From an uncultured Exiguobacterium sp. (GTDB lineage Bacteria; Bacillota; Bacilli; Exiguobacteriales; Exiguobacteriaceae), in the NCBI GenBank assembly GCA_913775715.1, contig CAJYMC010000005.1:124001-188000 (forward strand): a stretch of 64,000 nt of DNA, given 5' to 3'. A program made the position numbers and the translations under genes. Shown here piece by piece: positions 17,938-64,000 of the stretch. The notes beneath the pieces are model-generated. The model worked only from the letters and a program-made list of their open reading frames with translations, had not been told where the DNA came from and did not search any database. The first letter of the stretch is position 1; every line of letters begins with the position of its first letter.

Positions 17938-20900
17938 TTATTTTTTTGCTGGAACCTTGATGAGGAATGGTACCGGTTTAGGAACATCTCCGAACTTTGC
18001 GAACAAGACGACGAGGTGTTCGTATTTGTCTGGTGTCACGACGGCTTGACTTCCTTGAATCGTTACGATGTCTGGATGAGAAGATTTCCATTCACTTATA
18101 GATTTTGATCCAATACCAAGAACACCACCATAACTTTGAGGAAGCGAAGCTGACTTACCTAACGTGAGTGAATCGACGATCGGATTGACGATGCCTCCGA
18201 GGACATTCAATAAACTTGAGAGTAAGGATGTCTGAGTATCTTGCGTAGCGAGTGACAATATACTTGAAGTATTACCAGTTGTCGCAGAAAGCGTGAAAGG
18301 CGTAATTTGTGATCGATTCTTAACGATACCGAGACTCGTTAAAAGACTTTCATTACTTGATTTCCAGGTAAGTGGAGATCCGTTTAACGTAGTCGGTAAC
18401 TTTAAATCGAGGTAGACGTTCAGCGTCGGACTGACGGCTGCGATGCGCGCGAGATCTTCTTTAAGGATCAGACTGAGATTCCCAGCAATCGTTCCATCGA
18501 ATGTCTTGCTTTTTAAGACGCCGTCTTTCGTGATCCATGCCGTCAAAGAGAACGCCTGTGAAGAAACGGCTGGAATGATGGTACCGGTATTACTAATGAT
18601 GTTCGTATTGCTTGATTTCCACGTGATCGGTAATCCGTTGATTTGAGTCGGCAAGTTGAGGGAAGACGTCAAATCTGTTAGTGAACTGAGGGAGAGGTCT
18701 TGTAACGCCTTATCTAATAGTTTTGTTGGACTCAAGGGAACTTTGATACCTGTAATCGTTCGATTTTTAGTAACACTATCTTTCGTCGCGGTTATTGTGA
18801 TATCGACGAGTTCGTCAGTGAGACCTTGGGTGACGACTCCGCCACTTGCTACAACAGAAGGCTTGTCGGATTTAATCGAAACAGTGATTCCAGTGGGCGC
18901 TTGAAGAACCAGATTAGTCGTCAAAATGTTTGGAATGCTCAGGCTATCAAGATAAGACTGGACAATATCAGCAGCAGATGGATCTTTCATCGGAACCGTT
19001 AGCTGATCAAAGGTTTTGGTTTCCGTAGCCTCTCCTTTTTTAGCGGTCACTGTTAATGACAACTTAGTGTTGGTTGCAGCTGGAATGATGGATCCGTCAT
19101 TTAAAAGAACCGCAGTATTGCTGGAAGATAAGGTAACTGTAATGCCTTTCGCACTCGCTTCGTCGATTAAATTAAGCTTTTCGGTGAGTAAAGAAGGAAG
19201 CGTTAGTTGATCGAGATATTTTTGTAATTCTTCGGCATCTGTCAATGCACGTTTCGGTACTGAAATACTTTCAAATTGTTTCGATAGTGATATCCCATTT
19301 TTCGAGGCGATTATTGTAATATCAGTCGTTCGATCTACGATATCGCGTGTGAGAATGCCGGTACTAGACAATAGTGAAGTAACCGAGGGTTCAATCCGAA
19401 CGTCTATCCCTGCAGGTGGATCCAATGAAAGATTAGTTTTGAGTGGACCTGTGATTGAAAGACCTTTTAAATAGTTCGTCAATTCTTCTGTCACTGTCAG
19501 AGGACGTGCGGGTACAGAAAGATTTGAAAACATCTTCGTCTTTGAAACACCGTTGAGCACAGCTGTCACACTGACTGTCACAGATTGAGCAGTATCTGCT
19601 AGTTTAACCACGCCTGACGTTCCCACGACATCCGGCTGGGAAGAGGTCAGGTATACGGTCAGTCCCTCAGGTGCGGGAGGTAACTGAATGTTTTGATTCA
19701 ACGGACTAGCAATCTCGACTTGATTCAAATAAGTGTCGATCAAGGCATCCGGTAACACCTCTTGTTTTGGAATCGTGATCAATGGAAACTCCTTCTTACG
19801 AATAATTCCGTCTTTTGACGCCGTCACCGTCACAGAGACGATCTGATCAGTCAGACCGCGTGTCACGCTGCCGGTATTCGAAAGGACAGCTGTGTTCGTT
19901 GAGAAGAAAGAAGTCTCGATTCCCGGTGTCATCGGGGTTGGCAAGTAATAATCAGCTGTCAAAGGTGATGGGATTTCGACCGTTTTCAGATAATCATCGA
20001 GCAAATCAACTGTCGCATTCTCTTTTTTCGGGACAACGTATTTCGAGAACGTCCGTGTCCGCGAAATGCCGTCTTTCGTTGCTGTAATCGTGAACGTCAC
20101 TGTTTGATCAACAGATGAGCGAGTCACTATTCCGGCACTAGATAAGATCGCATTGTTGTCTGAAACAATCGAGGTCGTGATTCCCGAAGCGATGGGAAGC
20201 GACAGACTCGATGTCAATGGATTTGAAATCGATAAAGTATTCAGGTAGGTGTCGAGGAGTTCTTCCGTTGCACCCTCTTTTTTTGGAACGACGAGTCCGG
20301 AGAACGTCCGTGTCCGCGAGACGCCGTCTTTCGTTGCGATGATCGTCACGGAAACCGTCTTATCTGTTAAGCCCCGCTTGATTTTCCCGCTTGTTGCTAG
20401 TACAGACGTGTCATCCGAAGAAAGTGTTGCAACAATGCCATCCTCCTCCGGTAAGACGATATCCGACAAAAGCGGACTCGAAAGAGCGATCCCATCCAGA
20501 TAGTTTTGTAGCAAATCACTCGTAGCCCCATCTTTTTTCGGAATCGTTAAGTTTGAGAAGGTGCGTAATTTAGTGACGCCATCTTTTGTCGCAATGACTG
20601 TCAAGGAGACGACTTTATCCGTCAGACCACGAGTGACTTGACCGGCATTCGATAAAATCGAGGTATTGGTCGAAGACAGTGTCGTCCGAATGCCGTCGAC
20701 AGTCGGAAGCGTCACGTCACGCGTCAACGTACTTGGGATATCAAGCTTGTTCAAGTAATCTGCTAACAGTTCGTCAATCGCTGTATCTCGTTTCGGGACT
20801 TGATAATTCCAAAAGCTACGTGTGCGTGTCACGCCATTTTTTGTCGCCGAGACAAGGAAGGATAGGGATTGATCGGTCAGGCCGCGTGTCACTTTCCCCG

Positions 20901-22383
20901 TCGACGAGAGAACGTCCGGAAGCGAAGAAGTCAGAGAGAGCGTTGTTCCCGATGCGGCAGGCAATACCAGGTCTTTTAGTAAGGGATTCGGGAATGTCAG
21001 ACGACTCAGGTAGTCATCTAAGAACAACTCCGTTGCATTGTCGACTTTCGGGACAGTGATATTCGAGTAAAGACATGTTTTTTCAAGACTACCTTTTGAA
21101 GCCTTCAACGTGAGCGTGACGAGTTGATCTGTCAGGTCACGGCGTACTTTACCGTCCGGTGTGACGATTTTTTCATTTGAAGATATCAATTGGAATGTTA
21201 TACCTTCTGCTTGCGGTAACTGAATGTCCTTCGTCAACGGACTCCCGAGTTTGAACTTGTCGAGAGTAAAGTCGATCAGCTCCTCGTCCGTCAGGTCACG
21301 TTTCGGAATCGTAACGCCCGAGAAGGAGCGCGTTTCTTCAAGACCATTCAATTTCCCGACGATCGTGAACGCGACGTCCCGTTCTTGATCCGTGCGAATG
21401 ACTTGTCCGGTAGGCGATAGATTGCCGTCCGTGGAACGGATGCTGAATGTGGCCCCATCCACTTGCGGAAGCTGAATGTCTTGTAGGAGCGGACTTGCAA
21501 TCGTAATTCCTGCAAGCAATGCCTTCAAGATTTTTCGTGAGTCGTCCGGTGCTGGAGGCGTGACGACGTTACGAATCGTAACAGTGGAAGGAGCTGCATT
21601 TTGCGATCCGCTTAAAATCGAAACGTCATAGCGTCCGACCGGCAATACATTCGTTTCGATTCGGAAGTATCCTTGTCGATCACGTTTCAGTGGATACATC
21701 GATACACGGTCTTTATCGTCGATCAGATACAGGTGATGTGTCATACCTTTTGCCGGATAGAGGATGCGACCGGTGACGAGTAGTCGGCGACCACTTTCAA
21801 ACGGCGTATACCTCACGTTTTCATGTTTGACGTCTGAAACGCGTAATGTATTTTTTCCAGCAATCAAGACGTTGCGTCCAACGGCTGTGTACTTCACGCT
21901 TTTGTTCCCAAAGGACGCTGTTGTCGTCCGTGTCCACTTCAGTGGATACGAATAGCGCTGCCCACCAGCGAAAATCGTCGATAGCCGTTCTGGAAGTTTA
22001 GTCGGTTGGTTTTTTCCAACCGTTTTAACGACAGGTGGAAGAATCGATTTCGGATAGTTTTTGATCGTGACGTACCAGTAGGCACTTTTAGAAGTTCCAG
22101 CAACATTCCCTTTAATTTTTTGTTTTCGATCAATGATTTTTTTATCGAAACGAACACTACTCCATTTCACGGATCGTTTCACTTTTTTACCGTTCGCAAG
22201 TTTAACACGAACGGTCTTTGGTGGAGAAAGGGGTTTGACCGCAAACACATCGCCGCCATAATGGACGGTTGATGCAGGACGGTATACTTTTTTGACGCTG
22301 CTTGATTTAGCGGCAGCAACGGATTGGAATGAGGCGGGGAAGGAAAGCAACAGACAGAGAAGAACGATAAGACTCTTTCGCAT
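17938..22383 (-). CDS. Giant secreted protein with 13 atrophied Ig-like repeats
   Basis: 1481 residues; GGGAGG 7 bases before ATG 22383. Signal peptide about 1-25. Residues about 30-170 carry the module shared with the S-layer-like protein (HYGGDVFAVK..SPPKTVRV, RSVKWSSVRFDKK, NYP) and its second Big_4-like part. A short beta domain is followed by 13 tandem repeats of about 82-87 residues (DNA about 18,225-21,535), each of the form LLxxYLxxLxIxxPLTxxxxLP, a Ser-Ser/Thr stretch, G.VTRGLTDQ.VS.T..ATKDGV...RTFS...VPK. This matches atrophied bacterial Ig (aBig_2-like) domains. A distinct C-terminal domain of about 95 residues (QSYGGVLGIGSKSISEWKSS) ends in KVPAKK. It is a paralogue of the next gene upstream. 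Probably a long surface fibre or S-layer-associated protein; anchor unknown. Confidence 0.8.
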   Translation of the reverse strand: MRKSLIVLLCLLLSFPASFQSVAAAKSSSVKKVYRPASTVHYGGDVFAVKPLSPPKTVRVKLANGKKVKRSVKWSSVRFDKKIIDRKQKIKGNVAGTSKSAYWYVTIKNYPKSILPPVVKTVGKNQPTKLPERLSTIFAGGQRYSYPLKWTRTTTASFGNKSVKYTAVGRNVLIAGKNTLRVSDVKHENVRYTPFESGRRLLVTGRILYPAKGMTHHLYLIDDKDRVSMYPLKRDRQGYFRIETNVLPVGRYDVSILSGSQNAAPSTVTIRNVVTPPAPDDSRKILKALLAGITIASPLLQDIQLPQVDGATFSIRSTDGNLSPTGQVIRTDQERDVAFTIVGKLNGLEETRSFSGVTIPKRDLTDEELIDFTLDKFKLGSPLTKDIQLPQAEGITFQLISSNEKIVTPDGKVRRDLTDQLVTLTLKASKGSLEKTCLYSNITVPKVDNATELFLDDYLSRLTFPNPLLKDLVLPAASGTTLSLTSSLPDVLSSTGKVTRGLTDQSLSFLVSATKNGVTRTRSFWNYQVPKRDTAIDELLADYLNKLDIPSTLTRDVTLPTVDGIRTTLSSTNTSILSNAGQVTRGLTDKVVSLTVIATKDGVTKLRTFSNLTIPKKDGATSDLLQNYLDGIALSSPLLSDIVLPEEDGIVATLSSDDTSVLATSGKIKRGLTDKTVSVTIIATKDGVSRTRTFSGLVVPKKEGATEELLDTYLNTLSISNPLTSSLSLPIASGITTSIVSDNNAILSSAGIVTRSSVDQTVTFTITATKDGISRTRTFSKYVVPKKENATVDLLDDYLKTVEIPSPLTADYYLPTPMTPGIETSFFSTNTAVLSNTGSVTRGLTDQIVSVTVTASKDGIIRKKEFPLITIPKQEVLPDALIDTYLNQVEIASPLNQNIQLPPAPEGLTVYLTSSQPDVVGTSGVVKLADTAQSVTVSVTAVLNGVSKTKMFSNLSVPARPLTVTEELTNYLKGLSITGPLKTNLSLDPPAGIDVRIEPSVTSLLSSTGILTRDIVDRTTDITIIASKNGISLSKQFESISVPKRALTDAEELQKYLDQLTLPSLLTEKLNLIDEASAKGITVTLSSSNTAVLLNDGSIIPAATNTKLSLTVTAKKGEATETKTFDQLTVPMKDPSAADIVQSYLDSLSIPNILTTNLVLQAPTGITVSIKSDKPSVVASGGVVTQGLTDELVDITITATKDSVTKNRTITGIKVPLSPTKLLDKALQDLSLSSLTDLTSSLNLPTQINGLPITWKSSNTNIISNTGTIIPAVSSQAFSLTAWITKDGVLKSKTFDGTIAGNLSLILKEDLARIAAVSPTLNVYLDLKLPTTLNGSPLTWKSSNESLLTSLGIVKNRSQITPFTLSATTGNTSSILSLATQDTQTSLLSSLLNVLGGIVNPIVDSLTLGKSASLPQSYGGVLGIGSKSISEWKSSHPDIVTIQGSQAVVTPDKYEHLVVLFAKFGDVPKPVPFLIKVPAKK

Positions 22384-22482
22384 GACCAAACCTCCCTAGA
22401 AAGTGTAATGTCCAGGCAAATGATTGGCTCTCAGGTGTTGAAGTTCCCATGATGTATGTAGCAGAAAAATCAGTTAGAAAAA

Positions 22483-22551: not shown

Positions 22552-25500
22552 TTAACGTTTAGGGATTTTGACAAGAACCGGAACAGGTTTCTCGAGACCC
22601 TCATAGTCTGCATAGAGCACGACGAGGTGATCAACATCATCACGTTTTACAGTTAAGTTATACCCCTGGATTGTCACAAGGTCCGGGTGTGAACTACTCC
22701 AGCCGGTAATATCACGTGCTCCAATACCAAGAAGACCACCGTAACTTTTCGGAAGTGTTGCTGTTCCTTGACCGCTAGCTAGTGTGTTGACGACAGGATT
22801 TAATACATTCCCAAGTAAATCAACGACGCCGCTTAGCAAACCACCAGAAGGACGTTGGATAGCAAGATTTAACGTTTCCGTTGTTCCTCCAGATTTCGCA
22901 GTAAGTGTGAATGGTGTCGCACTCGAGTCGCTTAGGATCACCCCGCTATTGTTTAGAAGCGATGGTGCACTAGATGTCCAATCGATCGCTGAACCATTCA
23001 ATGAAGTCGGAAGGTTGAGGTTATAGGCAACATTCAACGTACCAACGCTTGACTTGATTTTTGCGATATCCGTTTTAAGGGATAGACCAAGATCAGCCGC
23101 AACTGATCCCGCGAACGTTTTCGTTTTCGTAATGCCACCTTTTGTGACACTTGCCTTGAGTGAGAAGTTTTGTAGATTCAATGCACTTTTTACGACACCG
23201 TCGTTTGAGATGACGTCCGGGTTGTTCGAAGTCCATTGAACAGCAATTCCTTTAGAACTACTTGGCAGATTGACGTTACCTGTTAAGTTGATGAGATTGA
23301 GATTGATCGCATCTAGTGCAGCATCGAGTTCTGCCGAGAGACTGATTGGGACAAGAATGTTCGAGAATGTCCGTGATTTCGTGACACCGTCTTTAGAAAC
23401 GTTGACCGTCACGGAAATCGTTTTATCAGCATCAGGTCGTGTCAGGATACCTGTGTTAGATAAGATGCTTGGATCCGACGCGCTGATTGACAAGTTCGCA
23501 CCAGCAGGTGGTGTCAGTGAAAGATCTGCTGTCAACGGACTGTTGATCGATAGACCTGCTAGATATAGATCAAGTAATTCGCCAGTCGTGACATCACGTT
23601 TTGGAACAAGGATGTTCGAGAAGACTTTTGATTTTGATTTGCCGTCTTTTGCGACGATGATCGTCAGTGAAACCGTTTGGTTCGCGTCACCACGCGTGAC
23701 GACACCTGCATTTGAGACGACTTTCGTGTCAGAAGAACTGATCGTGACCGTTCCACCGTCAAGTGATGGAAGAGAGAGATTCGTTGTCAGTGGGTTGGCG
23801 ATGACGAGTGCGTCCAAGTACGCTTGTAACGCTCCTTCCGTGACACCATCACGTTGCGGTACTTTGATGTTCGAGAACGTCCGTGTTTTAACGACATCGT
23901 CTTTAGAGACGGAAATCGTCAATGAAACGGTTTGATCCGTAAGACCACGCGTGACTTTACCGGCATTCGAGACGACATTCGTGTTCGAAGAACTGATGGC
24001 GATTGTCGCACCTTCTGGTGGCGTCAACATGAGATCTTTTGTTAATGGATTGTCGATCGTTAATTTGTCGAGATAGTCTTGCAATGAGATCGCTGTTGCG
24101 TCATCACGTTTTGGAACGTTCAAGTTCCAGAAGTCGCGTGATTTTGTGATACCATCTTTTGTGACCGAGACGACGATCGAGACCGTTTGATCCGTCATAC
24201 CGCGTGTGACGACTCCTGTGTCTGAGATGACGCTAGGTTTAGTCGATGTGATCGAGACTGTAGCACCTGGAAGTGCTGGAAGGACGATATTTTTCGTCAC
24301 CGGACTCTTGATATCGAGTTTATCAAGATAGTCTTGCAACAGGCTATCTGTCGCATTGTCGACTTTCGGGACGAGGATGTTCGGGAAGTTCTTCGTTTTT
24401 GTCAAGCTACCTTTCGTCGCGCGTAACGTCAAGTCGACTTGTTTGTCTTCGAGGCCACGTTTAACGATTCCGTTGCTTGAGACGACGGCTTCATTCGAAG
24501 AAATCAGCGAGAACGAGATTCCTTCAGCTGTTGGCAATGTGATATTCGTTTTGAGTGGATTGGCGATTGTGAAGTTCTGAAGCGTGAAGTCAATCAACTC
24601 TTCGTCCGATAAGTCTTTTCGTGGAACGAGGATGTTCGAGAACGATTTACTTTCCGTTACACCATCAAACGTCGCCTTGATTTTGAAATTGACCGTTTGA
24701 TCGGTCGCGCCACGCATGACTTTCCCGCTGCTTGAGACGACTGGATTGTCTGAATCGACCGAGAACGAGACACCATCGACTTCTGGGAACTCGATGTCAC
24801 TTAACAGGGGATTCGAGACATTGATGACGAGAAGTAATTTTTGGAGCAGTTCTCGTTTTTGTTCATCCGTTGGTTCCGTAACCGGTTTTTTGATCGTAAT
24901 CGAGACGGATTTCGTCTTTTTCGAACCCGACAGGATGTAGACCGTGTAGTCTCCTGGAGCGAGTTCCTGACTTGTCACGTAGTAATGTCCTTTTTTATCG
25001 AGTTTGAGGTACATCTTCGTGCTCTCACCCGTCTTTTTATCCGTGATGACGAGGTAGCTTTTTACGCCTTTTGCTTCATAGAGAATTTTGCCGGTTGCCC
25101 GAATCTTTTTCCCGTACGAGACGAGATAATACTTCTGCATCGACTGGACGACATCAGATACTTTTAGCTTAGCAGCCCCGTAGATTTCGAGGTTGCGTCC
25201 GACTGTCGAATACGTCAGATTTTTCGTACCGAATGAAGCTGTTGAGACCTTACTCCATTTGAGCGGATACGAGTAGCGTTGTCCACCCTCGAAAATCGTT
25301 GAAAGACGTGTCGGCAAGTTCGCTGGTTGATTCTTTCCGACGGTCATGACATTCGGAGCAAGCACCTTCGCTGGATAGTTTTTGACTTTGACATACCAGT
25401 ACGCATTTTTTGATGTACCGTAGACATCCCCCTTGATCTTCTGTTTCTTTCCGATGTACTTCTTATCAAAGCTGACCTTACTCCATTTGACGGATCGATA

Positions 25501-25710
25501 CGCATACTTCCCATTCGAGAGCTTGACCTTGACGGATTTTGGATACGTCAATTTCTTCTTGGCATACTTCACGCCACCGTAGTGAACAAGATACTTTGGT
25601 GAGTAGACGGTCTTGACGCTACTCGAAGAAGCGGCAGAAGCACCCAATGGGGTCAACCCATAGGACAGAATGAGAAGAAGACTCAGAACAATCGCCAACC
25701 CTTTTTTCAT
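22552..25710 (-). CDS. Giant secreted protein with 8 atrophied Ig-like repeats
   Basis: 1052 residues; GAGGAGG 8 bases before ATG 25710. Signal peptide about 1-27. The architecture equals that of the gene at 17938: shared N-terminal module (HYGGVKYAKKKLTYPKSVKV, RSVKWSKVSFDKKYIGK), a second Big_4-like part, a short domain with TGESTKMYLKLDKKGHYYV, then 8 rather than 13 repeats of about 83 residues, and the same C-terminal domain (KSYGGLLGIGARDITGWSSS). The length difference of 429 residues equals about five repeats, so the paralogues differ almost only by repeat number. Repeats 1-3 and the last two pair off clearly between the proteins; the central ones expanded separately. Confidence 0.8.
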   Translation of the reverse strand: MKKGLAIVLSLLLILSYGLTPLGASAASSSSVKTVYSPKYLVHYGGVKYAKKKLTYPKSVKVKLSNGKYAYRSVKWSKVSFDKKYIGKKQKIKGDVYGTSKNAYWYVKVKNYPAKVLAPNVMTVGKNQPANLPTRLSTIFEGGQRYSYPLKWSKVSTASFGTKNLTYSTVGRNLEIYGAAKLKVSDVVQSMQKYYLVSYGKKIRATGKILYEAKGVKSYLVITDKKTGESTKMYLKLDKKGHYYVTSQELAPGDYTVYILSGSKKTKSVSITIKKPVTEPTDEQKRELLQKLLLVINVSNPLLSDIEFPEVDGVSFSVDSDNPVVSSSGKVMRGATDQTVNFKIKATFDGVTESKSFSNILVPRKDLSDEELIDFTLQNFTIANPLKTNITLPTAEGISFSLISSNEAVVSSNGIVKRGLEDKQVDLTLRATKGSLTKTKNFPNILVPKVDNATDSLLQDYLDKLDIKSPVTKNIVLPALPGATVSITSTKPSVISDTGVVTRGMTDQTVSIVVSVTKDGITKSRDFWNLNVPKRDDATAISLQDYLDKLTIDNPLTKDLMLTPPEGATIAISSSNTNVVSNAGKVTRGLTDQTVSLTISVSKDDVVKTRTFSNIKVPQRDGVTEGALQAYLDALVIANPLTTNLSLPSLDGGTVTISSSDTKVVSNAGVVTRGDANQTVSLTIIVAKDGKSKSKVFSNILVPKRDVTTGELLDLYLAGLSINSPLTADLSLTPPAGANLSISASDPSILSNTGILTRPDADKTISVTVNVSKDGVTKSRTFSNILVPISLSAELDAALDAINLNLINLTGNVNLPSSSKGIAVQWTSNNPDVISNDGVVKSALNLQNFSLKASVTKGGITKTKTFAGSVAADLGLSLKTDIAKIKSSVGTLNVAYNLNLPTSLNGSAIDWTSSAPSLLNNSGVILSDSSATPFTLTAKSGGTTETLNLAIQRPSGGLLSGVVDLLGNVLNPVVNTLASGQGTATLPKSYGGLLGIGARDITGWSSSHPDLVTIQGYNLTVKRDDVDHLVVLYADYEGLEKPVPVLVKIPKR

Positions 25711-26215
25711 CAATACAACCTCCTCTAAATCAATAGACTAAAGTGTGCATGGATGAACGTGCATCTCAGGTGTATAAAATAAAATTACCCTTTTATTATG
25801 GAAAATATGTAATATTTTTAACATAATTATATTAAATGGTATTTATTAGGTATCTTATGTGGGTCTATAGTTCTGAATCGTTGGTATAAGAGGATTTTAG
25901 ATATGTAATAAATATTCATCTTTTGAAGGTCTATATACTCATAAAGTTTCAATGAATAGTAATTTTGGTCTAAATTTCAAATATATGACATACTTGTTTC
26001 TTTTATTTTCAAAAAGTACTAAATTCGGTCATCCAGCGTATGAATTGAGTGTTATTTCGAAATAAAGGTCATGAAAAAACGATAAAAATTGAATAAAAAT
26101 GTAAAAATAAAAACTAAAAAGGAAAAATAGATAGAAAAAACCAATAAATCCATTATAATGAGATGAGGTATGAATGATGCATTCATGAAATGAACAGAAG
26201 AAAGAGGATGATCGA
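25711..26215. other. AT-rich divergent promoter region
   Basis: About 500 bases without a supportable gene between the 8-repeat gene (minus) and a small secreted protein (plus). TATAAT at 26155-26160 is a good -10 for the plus gene; no clear -35 is seen. The part next to the minus gene is its leader. Confidence 0.5.
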
Positions 26216-26941: not shown

Positions 26942-27006
26942 TCTAAGCAGGTCAGAAACTGATGCAATTGAGCAGATGAAACTACTTGGCTGAAGGGGGA
27001 ATTTCG

Positions 27007-27825
27007 ATGCAACATGGCGAGTACTTGCACGACTATCTCATCTCACACCCGACGTTTGCAAAACCGACGATTAAAGCCTACCGCAGTGACGTTCGACATA
27101 TGGAACGTGCCGGTGTCTCGTGGTCGATCGCGTCGCTCCAGCACTACTTCGATCAGATGCGTATGACCTATCAGCCGTCGACGATCCTACGGCGGTTCCA
27201 TGCCTTGCGTTCACTCGGAAATGTACTTGTCCGAGCCGGGAAGTTGCAAGAGAATCCACTGCATGACGTGTCACCGATCACGCATCAATGTTTTCCGGAT
27301 GAGACCTATCATGACTTACAGGAAGGGCTGTCAATTGTCCGCAGCATCGAGGACCCGGTGTACCGTTTGTTTTTCGAAGTGATTTGCCAGACCGGTCTTC
27401 GCTTCACCGAAGCACGCCTCTTATCCGTTACAGATATTGATTTCAAGACGCATACGCTATTCGTCCGCTACGGCAAGGGACGCCGCCTGCGTACGATTCC
27501 GATCGGAATGATGCTGTCGCATCGTCTCCTGCATTTCATTGGCGAGCGTAAAGAGGGTATCCTGTTTCAGTCTGTGACTGGACGCCATCTGCATGAACAG
27601 ACGGCACGTGTGATTCTTCGAGACACCGCCCTGCGCTTGAGCGGCGCACCGCTCCGACCACATGCGCTCCGGATTGCATATGCGACCTATCTGCATCACG
27701 AAGGGGGCTGTACAATCGTTGAAATCCAGCGCCTACTCGGTCATGCGCATCCGACGACGACCGTCGGCTATATCCGGAGTCGTACGAACCGGATTCGGGA
27801 GGTCCTCAATACGTTGTCGGCTTGA
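27007..27825 (+). CDS. XerC/D-like tyrosine recombinase (copy A)
   Basis: 272 residues; AAGGGGGAA upstream favours ATG 27007. The N-terminal SAM-like core-binding domain includes TIKAYRSDVRH. The catalytic domain has all expected residues: Arg in TGLRFTEARLL, Lys in YGKGRRLRTIP, His-x-x-Arg in HALRIAYATY, His in LLGHAHPTTT and nucleophile Tyr in VGYIRS. It is shorter than chromosomal XerC/XerD (about 300) but complete. It converges on and overlaps copy B by 20 bp. The two share KAYRSDVRH and overall layout and look like an old duplication, as XerC and XerD are. Likely substrate: the dif-like sites at 29128-29294 (inference). Confidence 0.88.
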   Translation: MQHGEYLHDYLISHPTFAKPTIKAYRSDVRHMERAGVSWSIASLQHYFDQMRMTYQPSTILRRFHALRSLGNVLVRAGKLQENPLHDVSPITHQCFPDETYHDLQEGLSIVRSIEDPVYRLFFEVICQTGLRFTEARLLSVTDIDFKTHTLFVRYGKGRRLRTIPIGMMLSHRLLHFIGERKEGILFQSVTGRHLHEQTARVILRDTALRLSGAPLRPHALRIAYATYLHHEGGCTIVEIQRLLGHAHPTTTVGYIRSRTNRIREVLNTLSA

Positions 27826-28639
27826 GCCGGTTGACTGAGGCACGATCAATGTCGCTGGAAGGCAAGATATAGTGTTGGGTCGTCCGGACGTCGCGATGAC
27901 CGAGCAGACGCATGATCGTCAATACGTCCGTCTCGTGTTCATGGTAGAGCGTAGTCGCAAAGGTCACCCGAAGATCATGCGGATGAAGAATCCGGCCGAG
28001 CTGCGTTAGACTCGCTTCGCGTAACGTCGACCGAATCCGTTTTGCCGGGAAACGACGACCTGTTTCCGTTGAAAACAATTCCTGAGAAGGAACAGATGTC
28101 GTCTCAAGATAACGTAATAAGACACGATGTAATTCATCATGTAACGGAAGGTGACGCATGCGTCCTCCTTTTCCGTGACGAACGAATAGTTGCTTGGTGT
28201 CCCAATCGATATCCGTCAGGCGTAAGGCATGTGCCTCGGCGAAACGAAGTCCCGTATGGAGCAGTAAGAAACAGAATACGTAAATGGTCTCGTCCGTAAT
28301 CCGTTCGAGGACGGACCGGATCTCATCGTACGAAAAGTGTAGGCGTCGACGGGCAATCGGGTGAGGACGTTTCGTTTGCGCGAGGGGATTGTGTGCTAAT
28401 GCGCGTTCGGTGACGAGTTGGTCGAACAGTGTCGACAGGGCATGGAGACGACGGGCGACAGTCGTCGAAGCATACGACGTTCGCAGTAAGGTACCGTACC
28501 GTTGCATCGAAGGAACATCGATTCGGGTCACGTTGCGACACAGGTGACGGACGTCGCTTCGGTAAGCTTTTTTTGTCAATGGACTGTAGGGTCCTTGTTC
28601 GATCAACGTTAATAATCGTTCTTCATAGAACACCATCAT
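27806..28639 (-). CDS. XerC/D-like tyrosine recombinase (copy B)
   Basis: 277 residues. Core-binding domain with TKKAYRSDVRH; catalytic residues Arg (TGLRFAEAHAL), Lys (HGKGGRMRHLP), His-x-x-Arg (HDLRVTFATT), His (LLGHRDVRTT) and Tyr (QHYILP) are all present. Its start codon overlaps the stop of the sigma-like gene (ATGA, 28636-28639), so the two are translationally coupled. The 3' end overlaps copy A on the other strand by 20 bp. Probably acts together with copy A as a heterotetramer, or independently, in site-specific recombination. Confidence 0.88.
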   Translation of the reverse strand: MMVFYEERLLTLIEQGPYSPLTKKAYRSDVRHLCRNVTRIDVPSMQRYGTLLRTSYASTTVARRLHALSTLFDQLVTERALAHNPLAQTKRPHPIARRRLHFSYDEIRSVLERITDETIYVFCFLLLHTGLRFAEAHALRLTDIDWDTKQLFVRHGKGGRMRHLPLHDELHRVLLRYLETTSVPSQELFSTETGRRFPAKRIRSTLREASLTQLGRILHPHDLRVTFATTLYHEHETDVLTIMRLLGHRDVRTTQHYILPSSDIDRASVNRLKPTTY

Positions 28640-29070
28640 CCGAGCAAATACTCGACTTTCTTGCGGAGTTCGGATTTCAAGGATCGGAGCCGGGCGTGCG
28701 AGTACCCGAGCGTCTCTTCCGTCCCGTTTATCAACGACTCGAGAAACGTGAACTCCGTCGCTGATAAGTCTCGCTTGAGTTCATTCATAAGATAAGTGAA
28801 CGATAGGTGCGGGGTACGCGGGCGTTCCGGTAACGCGTCGGAGACGACTTCGGTCGCAAGCGTCCGGTTACGGGTCGCCAGGTAATCGAGCATTGCTCCT
28901 TTTGCGCGAATCCGAACGAAGGTGACGGTCAATGTTTTGCCGTCCTCGATCGATTTCCATAGACGCAACAAGGCAGCTTGCCGGCATTCATCCTGTTCAT
29001 TCGGGTGGATCGACAGGCGAGAGAGAAGAGAGTTGATGAGGGGGAGCCAGTTGCGAAGAAGTTCATTCAT
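28636..29070 (-). CDS. Sigma-70-family-like protein coupled to recombinase B
   Basis: 144 residues; AAAGGA 9 bases before ATG 29070. The N-terminal half resembles sigma region 2: ECRQAALLRLWKSIEDG followed by VRIRAKGAMLDYLA, compare the helix WxxIxK and RIRGAMxDYL of Bacillus sigma factors. The C-terminal third (SATEFTFLESLINGTEETLG then YSHARLRSLKSELRKK) could be a short region 4 HTH. A small alternative sigma factor or a related regulator is likely; a ComX/ArpU-like activator is possible. Coupling to recombinase B suggests control of recombinase expression or of the neighbouring promoter. Confidence 0.65.
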   Translation of the reverse strand: MNELLRNWLPLINSLLSRLSIHPNEQDECRQAALLRLWKSIEDGKTLTVTFVRIRAKGAMLDYLATRNRTLATEVVSDALPERPRTPHLSFTYLMNELKRDLSATEFTFLESLINGTEETLGYSHARLRSLKSELRKKVEYLLG

Positions 29071-29397
29071 CGGAGGGAGTCCTTTGACGAGATATGCATA
29101 TCTGCTATGTATTCCGCGGTAGTTTCAGTATAAGTAGAGTTATCCTCGGCTTTCAACGTCACTTTTTTGAATCGTGCCAACGGTTTTCTCATCTTTTACG
29201 ATGCGTATATCCTTCAATACAGAAAAAATCCTCTTCTTTAATCGAGAAAAACCCCATGAAATCAGACTCCTGTATCGGATAACTCTACTTATCCTCGAGC
29301 GTGTTCGAAAAAAGATTTATTTTTGGGAAAAGAAGGGGAATGTTGAGAATTTCATTATACTTATGAATAAGACGCTACTAAAAAGGAGAAACCACAT
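29071..29397. promoter_or_regulatory. Divergent control region of the recombinase cassette and secreted-protein gene
   Basis: A 327-bp intergenic region holding a perfect 14-bp palindrome AGATATGCATATCT (29090-29103), two inverted dif-like sites (29128-29145 and 29277-29294), and TATACT at 29356-29361 as a possible -10 for the plus gene. No strong sigma-A promoter was found inside the segment between the sites; candidate -35/-10 pairs there match only 4 of 6 at each box. Confidence 0.6.
29128..29294. repeat. Inverted pair of dif-like recombination sites
   Basis: Site 1 (29128-29145) is GTATAA-GTAGAG-TTATCC; site 2 (29277-29294) is GGATAA-CTCTAC-TTATCC. The two contain a perfect 16-bp inverted repeat (ATAAGTAGAGTTATCC at 29130-29145 and its complement at 29277-29292). 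Each site has itself the ATAA-N6-TTAT dyad of Xer dif core sites, and the 6-bp centres are exact inverse copies. Recombination between them would invert about 143 bp upstream of both flanking genes. No target-site duplication flanks the repeat. Confidence 0.6.
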
Positions 29398-31113
29398 ATG
29401 AAAAAATTGATCGTCGGTCTTGCTGCGACCGTATTGTATTCTGCAACGTCGATCCATTCGTCGGCAGAAGTCAAAATTCCGTTCGTCACGTCACTCACTC
29501 CGTCATCCGCTTTTCAAGTCGTTCCGGATGAGTCGCGTGTCTGGCGCTGGGGGACTTATGAAGCACCACGACTCTTCGATTTCGAGCAAGCGCGCGACGT
29601 GCGGGTGCTATCGACTGAAGAGGGGGCACCGGTACAAGACTTCACGGTCTCGGACGATCAACAACGATTCGTCTTTGTGAAGGATCAAGTGCTTGAGGTA
29701 CGCGATGCGACAGGGAACGTACTGCGCGTCATCGACCAGATCAAGACACCTGCAGGAACGCTCCAATCGTTCACTCGTGCTCGATTCTTCCCAGACTCAC
29801 ATCTCCTTGCTGTGAGTGCGAAACAAGAGGGGGTCGAGCAGACAGCCGTCTACGATTTAGATTTAGCAACCGTTCGTTCTGTCCAGGAGACGACAGGAGC
29901 AAAAACGATTCGGACGTCGACTGCTTATTTAGCGATTATCCGCGCGACAAGCGTTGACGTCTACGAGAAAGACGGAACGCTCGCAAAACGTCTCACGCAT
30001 CCAGCGGGCTACGCCGCATATGAGATGGGACGCGAGGGCACACTCGTACTCGCGAAGGCGAATGACCGCCGTCTGTATGTCTATGATGGAGCGCATCAAT
30101 TCAAGGAAAGCACCTCCTCGCAGTTCATCACGGGGATGACCGGAACGTATAAAGACATCGCGGTCGATGAGAGTGGGAAGTTCATCGGTGCCTTGTATAC
30201 GGGACGGGACGGTTACTTCTCCTTGTTTGAGAAAAACGGTCACCGGATCGAGACATCACTGGATCGGGATGATTCCGTCAGTTACTCGTCTGTGCTCGGC
30301 ATCACGAAAGGAGCCCGCTACCTTATCGCGAATGCCGATGGCGGTGAGCGGACGAACATGTACGATGGTCGCCTGTTAGTCGAGCGACCGGTCGCGCTCT
30401 CGATCCCGTCTTCCTTCAAAGAAGTGAAGGTCGGATCACCTGAGCCGCTTCTTCTCAATGTCACGCAAGCAGACGGCAAGAAAAAACAAGTCACGGCAAA
30501 AGTGAAGTGGGTCTCGGATCAACCAACGATCGCGAGTATCTCGTCCGGAAAACTATACGGGAAAAAAGCGGGAACCTACACGTTACGAGCATCTTACGGA
30601 GGCTACACTGCGACACTCACAGGAAAAGTCATCCCGTTACCGAAGCTGTCAACTGTCTCCGACAGCAGTTGGTTGAAACGTCAAAAGCAGGCGATGCAAG
30701 AGAAGCAAGGGTTTGAAGGATCACCACGCGTCGGAGCTAGTTATGTCTCGTGGACAGGTACGTCAGGTAGCCTCGTTCAAACAGGAGAAAAGGTCCTCAA
30801 CGGAAAGTGGAAAGGTCGTCATTTTGTAGCCCGTTATCCGCGCTTCGGCAGTCAAATCGACCGAATTGATCTCGTCACGCTCGCACCATCGCTTGAGAAA
30901 CGGACGCTGACGAAAGCAGAAGTCAGCGCTGTATTCGGGAAACCAACGTTCAAGGAAACGTATGCAACGTCCTACTCGCAACGCGTCGTCGAAGGCAAAA
31001 CGACACGCGCGACGTACGCAATCCGCAGCGTCTACGAATATCGGATCGGGCAAGTGACGTGCCAGTTTGCCTTTGACGCGAAAGGAATGGCGCGGTTGAT
31101 TCATATGAATTGA
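29398..31113 (+). CDS. Secreted beta-propeller-like protein with Big_2 domain and BLIP-like tail
   Basis: 571 residues; AAAAGGAG before ATG 29398. Signal peptide about 1-23. Residues about 30-330 are repeated beta strands of WD40/propeller type (RVWRWGTYEAPRLFD; DDQQRFVFVKDQVLEV; GRDGYFSLFEKNGHRI). A Big_2 domain follows (about 340-415) with VKWVSDQPTIASISSGKLYG and KAGTYTL. The last about 155 residues share the pattern EVSAVFGKP...YEY...F.FDAKGMARL with the next gene. It faces the inverted dif-like sites and so may be phase-variable (inference). Confidence 0.7.
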   Translation: MKKLIVGLAATVLYSATSIHSSAEVKIPFVTSLTPSSAFQVVPDESRVWRWGTYEAPRLFDFEQARDVRVLSTEEGAPVQDFTVSDDQQRFVFVKDQVLEVRDATGNVLRVIDQIKTPAGTLQSFTRARFFPDSHLLAVSAKQEGVEQTAVYDLDLATVRSVQETTGAKTIRTSTAYLAIIRATSVDVYEKDGTLAKRLTHPAGYAAYEMGREGTLVLAKANDRRLYVYDGAHQFKESTSSQFITGMTGTYKDIAVDESGKFIGALYTGRDGYFSLFEKNGHRIETSLDRDDSVSYSSVLGITKGARYLIANADGGERTNMYDGRLLVERPVALSIPSSFKEVKVGSPEPLLLNVTQADGKKKQVTAKVKWVSDQPTIASISSGKLYGKKAGTYTLRASYGGYTATLTGKVIPLPKLSTVSDSSWLKRQKQAMQEKQGFEGSPRVGASYVSWTGTSGSLVQTGEKVLNGKWKGRHFVARYPRFGSQIDRIDLVTLAPSLEKRTLTKAEVSAVFGKPTFKETYATSYSQRVVEGKTTRATYAIRSVYEYRIGQVTCQFAFDAKGMARLIHMN

Positions 31114-63776: not shown

Positions 63777-63950
63777 ATGCGACCACGTACGATCGTTTGG
63801 CTCGTCCTAATGATTGCAGCAATCAATTTAGGACTTGGGATTTGGATGCCGGATACGTCGACCCGTACGACGATTAGTTCGATATTACTAGGTGTGATTC
63901 TAATACTAGGAGTATTTTATGTCATTGCGTTGAGACAATCTTCTAAATAA
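63777..63950 (+). CDS. 57-residue small membrane protein
   Basis: Short ORF with AAAGGAGAG before the ATG. Two hydrophobic helices (TIVWLVLMIAAINLGLGIWM and TISSILLGVILILGVFYVIA) joined by a polar loop (DTSTRT), with a basic start and a polar end. It is closed by a perfect 18-bp terminator stem overlapping its stop codon. Function unknown. Confidence 0.7.
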   Translation: MRPRTIVWLVLMIAAINLGLGIWMPDTSTRTTISSILLGVILILGVFYVIALRQSSK

Positions 63951-63994
63951 AAATGCTAGTTCGACTCTAATGGGTTGAACTAGCATTTTTATTT
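63945..63994. terminator. Terminator of the 57-residue protein gene
   Basis: Perfect 18-bp stem (63945-63962 and 63977-63994) with A- and T-rich ends, usable from both sides. Confidence 0.9.
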
Positions 63995-64000
63995 AGAATT

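Follow-up and report, generated by a model that had tools for sequence, protein, structure and literature searches.

A probable invertible promoter switch upstream of a sigma factor–recombinase operon in Exiguobacterium

FimE is the second recombinase of the Escherichia coli fimS switch. In fimS/FimB, as far as the available part of the description goes (PMC9993118), a short invertible promoter segment is likewise combined with tyrosine recombinases, and two recombinases also lie beside the switch in most of the genus termed g1 here. In contrast to fimS, the locus described here would control a sigma factor together with the recombinase rather than pili, in g1 the -35 part alone seems to move, and one recombinase lies inside the controlled operon. 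In Clostridioides difficile, RecV serves several unlinked switches. The flagellar, cwpV, pdc and cmr switches of this species are also site-specific flips of short upstream segments and, in the available parts of the sources, include phase variation of regulators (PMC5386303, PMC2784873, PMC9286219, PMC8844915), whereas the regulator at the present locus is a sigma factor that forms a single unit with recombinase and switch. SigH of Staphylococcus aureus, again in the available part of its description (PMC3486894), is a secondary competence sigma factor whose activity is confined to a minority of cells and arises in part from a DNA rearrangement. We liken it to the present system by that description; SigH depends on a rare gene duplication and 5' leader control, in contrast to inversion between dedicated sites. 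Small comK-linked sigma factors of other Bacilli belong to the 20 sigma factors from outside the order that are most closely related to the present one, but no recombinase of the kind found here was seen in the 20 stretches around them and the Exiguobacterium sigma gene is not beside comK. Finally, XerC/XerD-dif shares the recombinase family and, in g1 and seven of 20 g2 loci, an ATAA-N6-TTAT site core, but the present locus has a short inverted site pair rather than one dif site and its recombinases score under the XerC/XerD cut-offs.

The invertible promoters compared here control surface genes or regulators of signalling, whereas at this locus an alternative sigma factor and its own recombinase seemingly lie behind one. 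We consider it likely that the locus is an invertible promoter switch controlling the sigma–recombinase operon. Among the matches listed for titles and abstract beginnings of openly searchable papers, no description was found of DNA inversion in Exiguobacterium or of an invertible promoter before a sigma factor, which argues only weakly that none exists. The available part of one paper (PMC13114119) contains both an invertible promoter and sigma factors and does not join them.

Inverted sites and inversion of the segment between them

The window, the whole 64-kb stretch of DNA that was analysed, carries recombination site 1 on the sigma side (29128-29145, plus strand; GTATAAGTAGAGTTATCC), whose outer arm supplies five of the six bases of a fixed -10 box, and recombination site 2 on the far side (29277-29294, minus strand; GGATAACTCTACTTATCC as read in the window), which is an inverted copy of site 1. 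The positions, symmetry, 149-bp spacing between centres and perfect 16-bp inverted repeat of the two sites were all as originally predicted, and the repeat extends to 19 nt at 95%. Counting perfect inverted repeats with arms of at least 16 bp and a separation of more than 20 to approximately 230 bp, the window held two, namely this pair and one near 63941. The latter, longer than 16 bp, occupies 63941-63998 with its arms approximately 20-26 bp apart. A search of the whole genome for further copies, as had been proposed, found the exact 16-mer at sites 1 and 2 and nowhere else. One further place matched with two mismatches and appears chance-like because a reversed-pattern control also gave one; it adjoins repeats that we take to resemble DnaA boxes.

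The comparison across the order covered two genera, g1 (19 genomes) and g2 (20 loci), amounting to 38 genomes and 39 loci. An inverted site pair was located upstream of the sigma gene in all 39 loci, with centres 117-152 bp apart (best pair, at least 12/14 matching, 100-175 bp apart), against a chance expectation under this rule of an estimated 0.05 pairs per locus. Since the pair occurs in 39/39 loci, a chance origin of the repeat is excluded, and the genome-wide 16-mer search and the window repeat count also speak against it. The repeat was present in every one of the 38 searched genomes that carry the sigma gene.

The 16-bp core was identical in both copies in 18 of the 19 g1 genomes. In the nineteenth (G006), GTCGAG replaced GTAGAG at the 6-bp centre of both copies. 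The g2 site types differ from those of g1 and still form inverted pairs (e.g., ATAATGGTTGTTAT, AATCGTTGTTCTT, AAACGCTATTC, ATATTCATCGATAT). Because the sites are always paired (39/39) despite their clade-specific sequence, the two copies evidently change together, as strand exchange between them requires. The Xer-type core that the original prediction had recognised held for g1 and the seven g2 loci with ATAA-N6-TTAT and was absent in the other 13 g2 loci. One genome (G022, 8% contamination) contained two different switch types (L060 and L076), perhaps from two organisms.

Between the sites lies an inner segment of 131 bp (29146-29276; 133 bp in six g1 genomes) that was found in both orientations among relatives. 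Compared with the window, the g1 segment was direct in 13/18 genomes and reverse complemented in 5/18 (G002, G004, G012, G013, G015), with both flanks unchanged whichever way the segment lay. Orientations among the 20 g2 loci were split 10/10, the relative orientation between g2 site types resting on weaker similarity. Under the thresholds applied, 237 of the 741 pairings of the 39 loci gave an unambiguous sign, with none inconsistent. Segments in opposite orientation were up to 96.5% identical (G019/G020), followed by 96.2% for G012/G017 and 92.5% for G001/G002. On trees built from sigma and recombinase 1 DNA, in which five inner branches are too weak to resolve forks, there were at least four orientation changes in g1 (18 rows) and at least six in g2 (19 rows). 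The inversion that had been predicted was thereby observed between species, as repeated and precise inversion between the same two points with fixed flanks. With both orientations among relatives and the repeat in all 38 genomes, the prediction of an invertible segment withstood the refutation test that had been set for it. An assembly artefact is an unlikely source of these inversions because the 18-bp repeat is shorter than reads and the inverted G012 is a single-contig assembly. Judged from these alignments, the segment has flipped many times during Exiguobacterium evolution, and the locus displays the structural features of invertible promoters, with inverted repeats by a gene, both orientations and fixed flanks.

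The sigma factor gene and its linked recombinases

The two recombinase genes, the sigma gene and a gene at 29398 were as the original prediction had described them. The sigma gene (28636-29070, minus strand) codes for a small sigma-70-family protein of 144 aa with region 2 and a predicted C-terminal helical domain. It was detected in 19/19 genomes of the genus and 38/38 of the order, with a single sigma match in each of 37/38. The window protein shares 99% identity with its counterpart in E. indicum HHS 31; all six further named loci that were found likewise belong to Exiguobacterium. Domain analysis placed PF04542 above its cut-off and returned a FliA profile match (E 2.7e-4). The predicted structure is all helical (mean pLDDT 84.9, pTM 0.48), and the top 50 among 115 fold matches were sigma or RNA polymerase entries, none of which reached E 0.001. 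Region 2 together with this sigma-like predicted fold supports placing the protein in the sigma-70 family. No specific curated model was matched; one NCBIfam model, TIGR02937, scored below its cut-off.

Overlapping the sigma gene by 4 nt is the gene for recombinase 1 (27806-28639, minus strand), a tyrosine recombinase of 277 aa, and converging on it is the gene for recombinase 2 (26986-27825, plus strand), a tyrosine recombinase of 279 aa in which the catalytic residues are present. Both carry a Phage_integrase domain. In recombinase 1, R132, K157, H221, R224, H248 and Y257 were invariant across 40 aligned rows (the window copy counted twice). A recombinase gene was located downstream of sigma in 38/39 loci, the 39th ending at a contig end. 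The g1 genomes retain recombinase 2–recombinase 1–sigma–switch as a unit amid variable neighbouring genes, recombinase 2 being found in 18/19 genomes (interrupted in G004, none seen in G006). Recombinase 2 was not seen in the g2 stretches, in which 19/20 carry one recombinase 3' of sigma and the 20th lies at a contig end. In G004 (L026:8746-11936), a genome with its switch in the minus orientation, an element of two genes that resembles an IS21 istA/istB transposon has inserted into recombinase 2 and split it. Because of this split, the strain may reveal the action of recombinase 1 alone. The window also encodes two large, adjacent proteins that look secreted and seem similar to one another (17938-22389 and 22552-25713), the second of which has seven aBig_2 matches.

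The original prediction had taken the sites to be dif-like, and this was not borne out. The two window recombinases scored 111.5 and 96.8 bits with the XerC model (cut-off 335) and 93.7 and 87.5 bits with the XerD model (cut-off 329.6), and membership of the dif/Xer system was rejected on these scores. The ATAA-N6-TTAT core itself is of mixed occurrence across g2. Owing to its invariant catalytic residues, the low Xer scores and the occurrence of the exact site nowhere else in the genome, recombinase 1 is the best candidate for the enzyme inverting the segment. By analogy with FimB/FimE, recombinase 2 may bias the direction. It is unlikely that the sites are served by a host Xer-type or otherwise unlinked recombinase, with the linked enzymes doing something else; six of the eight Phage_integrase matches in the genome lie away from the locus and the g1 sites have an Xer-like form, but the genome's only exact sites adjoin two recombinase genes, and this linkage persists in both genera while the site sequence varies by clade.

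Candidate promoter elements and the gene probably controlled

In the window orientation, a -35 box, TTGAAA (29151-29156, minus strand), lies inside the segment and is aimed at the sigma operon, and a -10 box, TATACT (29127-29132, minus strand; TATGCT in 7/39 loci), stays in place on the sigma side when strands are exchanged. With the g1 segments set in this orientation, TTG stood at this place in 18/18 genomes, exactly 18 bp from TATACT. The box was clear (TTGAAA or TTGAAG) in 12/18 and weaker (TTGCGC or TTGCAT) in 6/18. In an in silico comparison whose -35 weights are approximations, the -35 score was lower in the other orientation in 16/18 g1 genomes. The other orientation scored higher in G001 and G002, both among the six with weak boxes, because of a TTGCTT at 16 bp. 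A scan of 28950-29450 gave a single promoter-like match, TTGAAA-18-TATACT spanning the near site. Shuffled versions of the region gave a mean of 1.0 matches, the same as the real one, so that the support for this promoter comes only from its position and conservation. For g1, in which the box is clear in most genomes and weak in six, there is good support for the reading that inversion would move the -35 box. No convincing sigma-A -35 box was found in either orientation in g2, which must therefore follow a different promoter logic, possibly one that involves an activator or the sigma factor itself.

Several other elements are conserved around the switch. Upstream of the -35 box and within the segment is AACCGTTGGCACGATT (29170-29185, minus strand), of which CCGTTGGCA is invariant in 18/18 aligned g1 genomes and which is possibly an activator or accessory-factor site. 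The fixed leader, kept in both genera, contains ACCGCGGAATACATA (29106-29120, minus strand), and ACCGCGGAA or ACCTAGGAA follows the -10 box by 11-12 nt in 38/39 loci. A leader palindrome, AGATATGCATATCT (29090-29103), has its counterpart GAGCGCTC at the same place in 13/20 g2 loci, its place being kept while its sequence differs between clades, and is possibly an operator or a small RNA hairpin. Just outside site 2, GTGTTCG (29301-29307) is kept in 17/18 g1 genomes, and the DNA beyond it differs between groups.

We propose that recombinase 1, with recombinase 2 in most of g1, would exchange strands between the inverted sites and flip the 131-bp segment, and we infer that this would also occur in growing cultures. 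In the window orientation, TTGAAA would stand 18 bp from the TATACT outside the exchange and the sigma–recombinase operon would be on, while in the other orientation the -35 box would face away and the operon would be off or low. Because the recombinase would be made together with the sigma factor, ON cells would tend to flip back, and expression of the sigma regulon would be confined to part of the population.

The original prediction had allowed for an effect on either neighbour, and the sigma–recombinase operon is much the likelier of the two. Inversion into the other orientation would set TTGAAA 18 bp from a TATCCT facing the secreted-protein gene at 29398, and the segment might therefore flip to switch this far-side gene, the sigma operon supplying the recombinase only. 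We regard this as very unlikely; the gene adjoins the switch in just 3/19 g1 genomes, and the far flank varies beyond GTGTTCG whereas the sigma-side -10 box and leader are kept in both genera. A switch of the secreted-protein gene was set aside because that gene is not conserved at the switch, and it is probably a bystander.

A dedicated switch also accounts better for the sites than a role as paired regulator operators, at whose inverted repeat inversions would happen by accident. Operators, too, can overlap a -10 box, as site 1 does, and be partly palindromic, as both sites are, but at least ten inversions between the same points on two trees, a linked recombinase in 38/39 loci and the 6-bp centre altered in both copies of G006 fit strand exchange and leave the operator reading highly improbable. 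There is similarly little to recommend the unit as a mobile-element remnant whose sites are attachment sites without a regulatory role, since, for all that the flanking genes vary and recombinase 1 is distantly related to phage integrases (227 records, all <60% identity), the sigma factor has a single match in nearly every genome and no plasmid match, and the sites bracket only the segment upstream of sigma and not genes. Among the 38 genomes of the order there was none without the unit, and hence no empty site to compare. One exact 18-mer of the site was detected in viral contigs, in a hairpin between phage genes; no second site was found in the surrounding 601 bases, and a phage origin was rejected along with a mobile-element one.

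Competence as a possible output, and significance

The sigma regulon may include DNA-uptake genes, given the kinship of the protein to comK-linked sigma factors. Of 299 genomes of the class that were searched with a sigma profile, 91 gave a match, 27 from this order and 64 from outside. In 12 of the best 20 of these 64 outside sigma loci (L162, L163, L165, L167-L169, L171, L172, L174, L175, L177, L179), a ComK homologue was located within approximately 3 kb. No recombinase of the recombinase 1 kind was found in the 20 stretches around these best outside sigma genes. The first ComK model was made from four ComK genes, two of which came from these same loci; Pfam ComK confirmed all 12, with 45 matches across the 20 genomes. 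This density of approximately two per genome of 2.6-4.1 Mb corresponds to an estimated chance of well under 1% per 6-kb stretch. The 12 loci are not independent because they come from three families only and ten of them from one (10/14 loci of that family, 2/6 of the others). ComK was found around none of the longer sigma genes (0/20 stretches), a control without genomes of the main comK-linked family, for which reason the genome-wide Pfam count is the better control. Of the comK-linked sigma factors, the six tested had their best score with model PRK06759, below its cut-off.

The window genome has two ComK genes, located on other contigs than the sigma gene. Upstream of comGA in 13 genomes, no promoter motif common with the switch was found (the gene start in G006 is unsure), and the alignment consisted of conserved coding, terminator and ribosome-site DNA. 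As a possible target motif of the sigma factor itself, the pattern TATACT-N9-CGGAATA gave 53 genome matches and its reversed control 51, a comparison that carries no weight because the gap was one short of the window's own 10. That the sigma factor governs competence is plausible, although we hold it clearly below an even chance because the comGA upstream regions lack a shared motif. A wider reading, which we offer tentatively and as the less probable side of the question, is that an order-wide competence or other stationary-phase programme is bet-hedged by inversion. A cell lineage would be committed when the segment in front of a competence-type sigma factor flips, and reset by the co-made recombinase; the switch would predate the split of the genera, and sites and recombinase would have changed together into at least five types.

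This candidate sigma–recombinase switch was present in all searched genomes from an order of environmental bacteria. If it works as we read it, it would be a compact genetic memory that resets itself, and the site types occurring naturally in the two genera offer material on how tyrosine recombinases evolve in step with their sites. Exiguobacterium has, in the available part of the literature, a full competence gene set and two comK genes, and its natural competence has been suggested, not demonstrated (PMC8706201); if true, a competence sigma factor under an invertible promoter would give a testable reason why.
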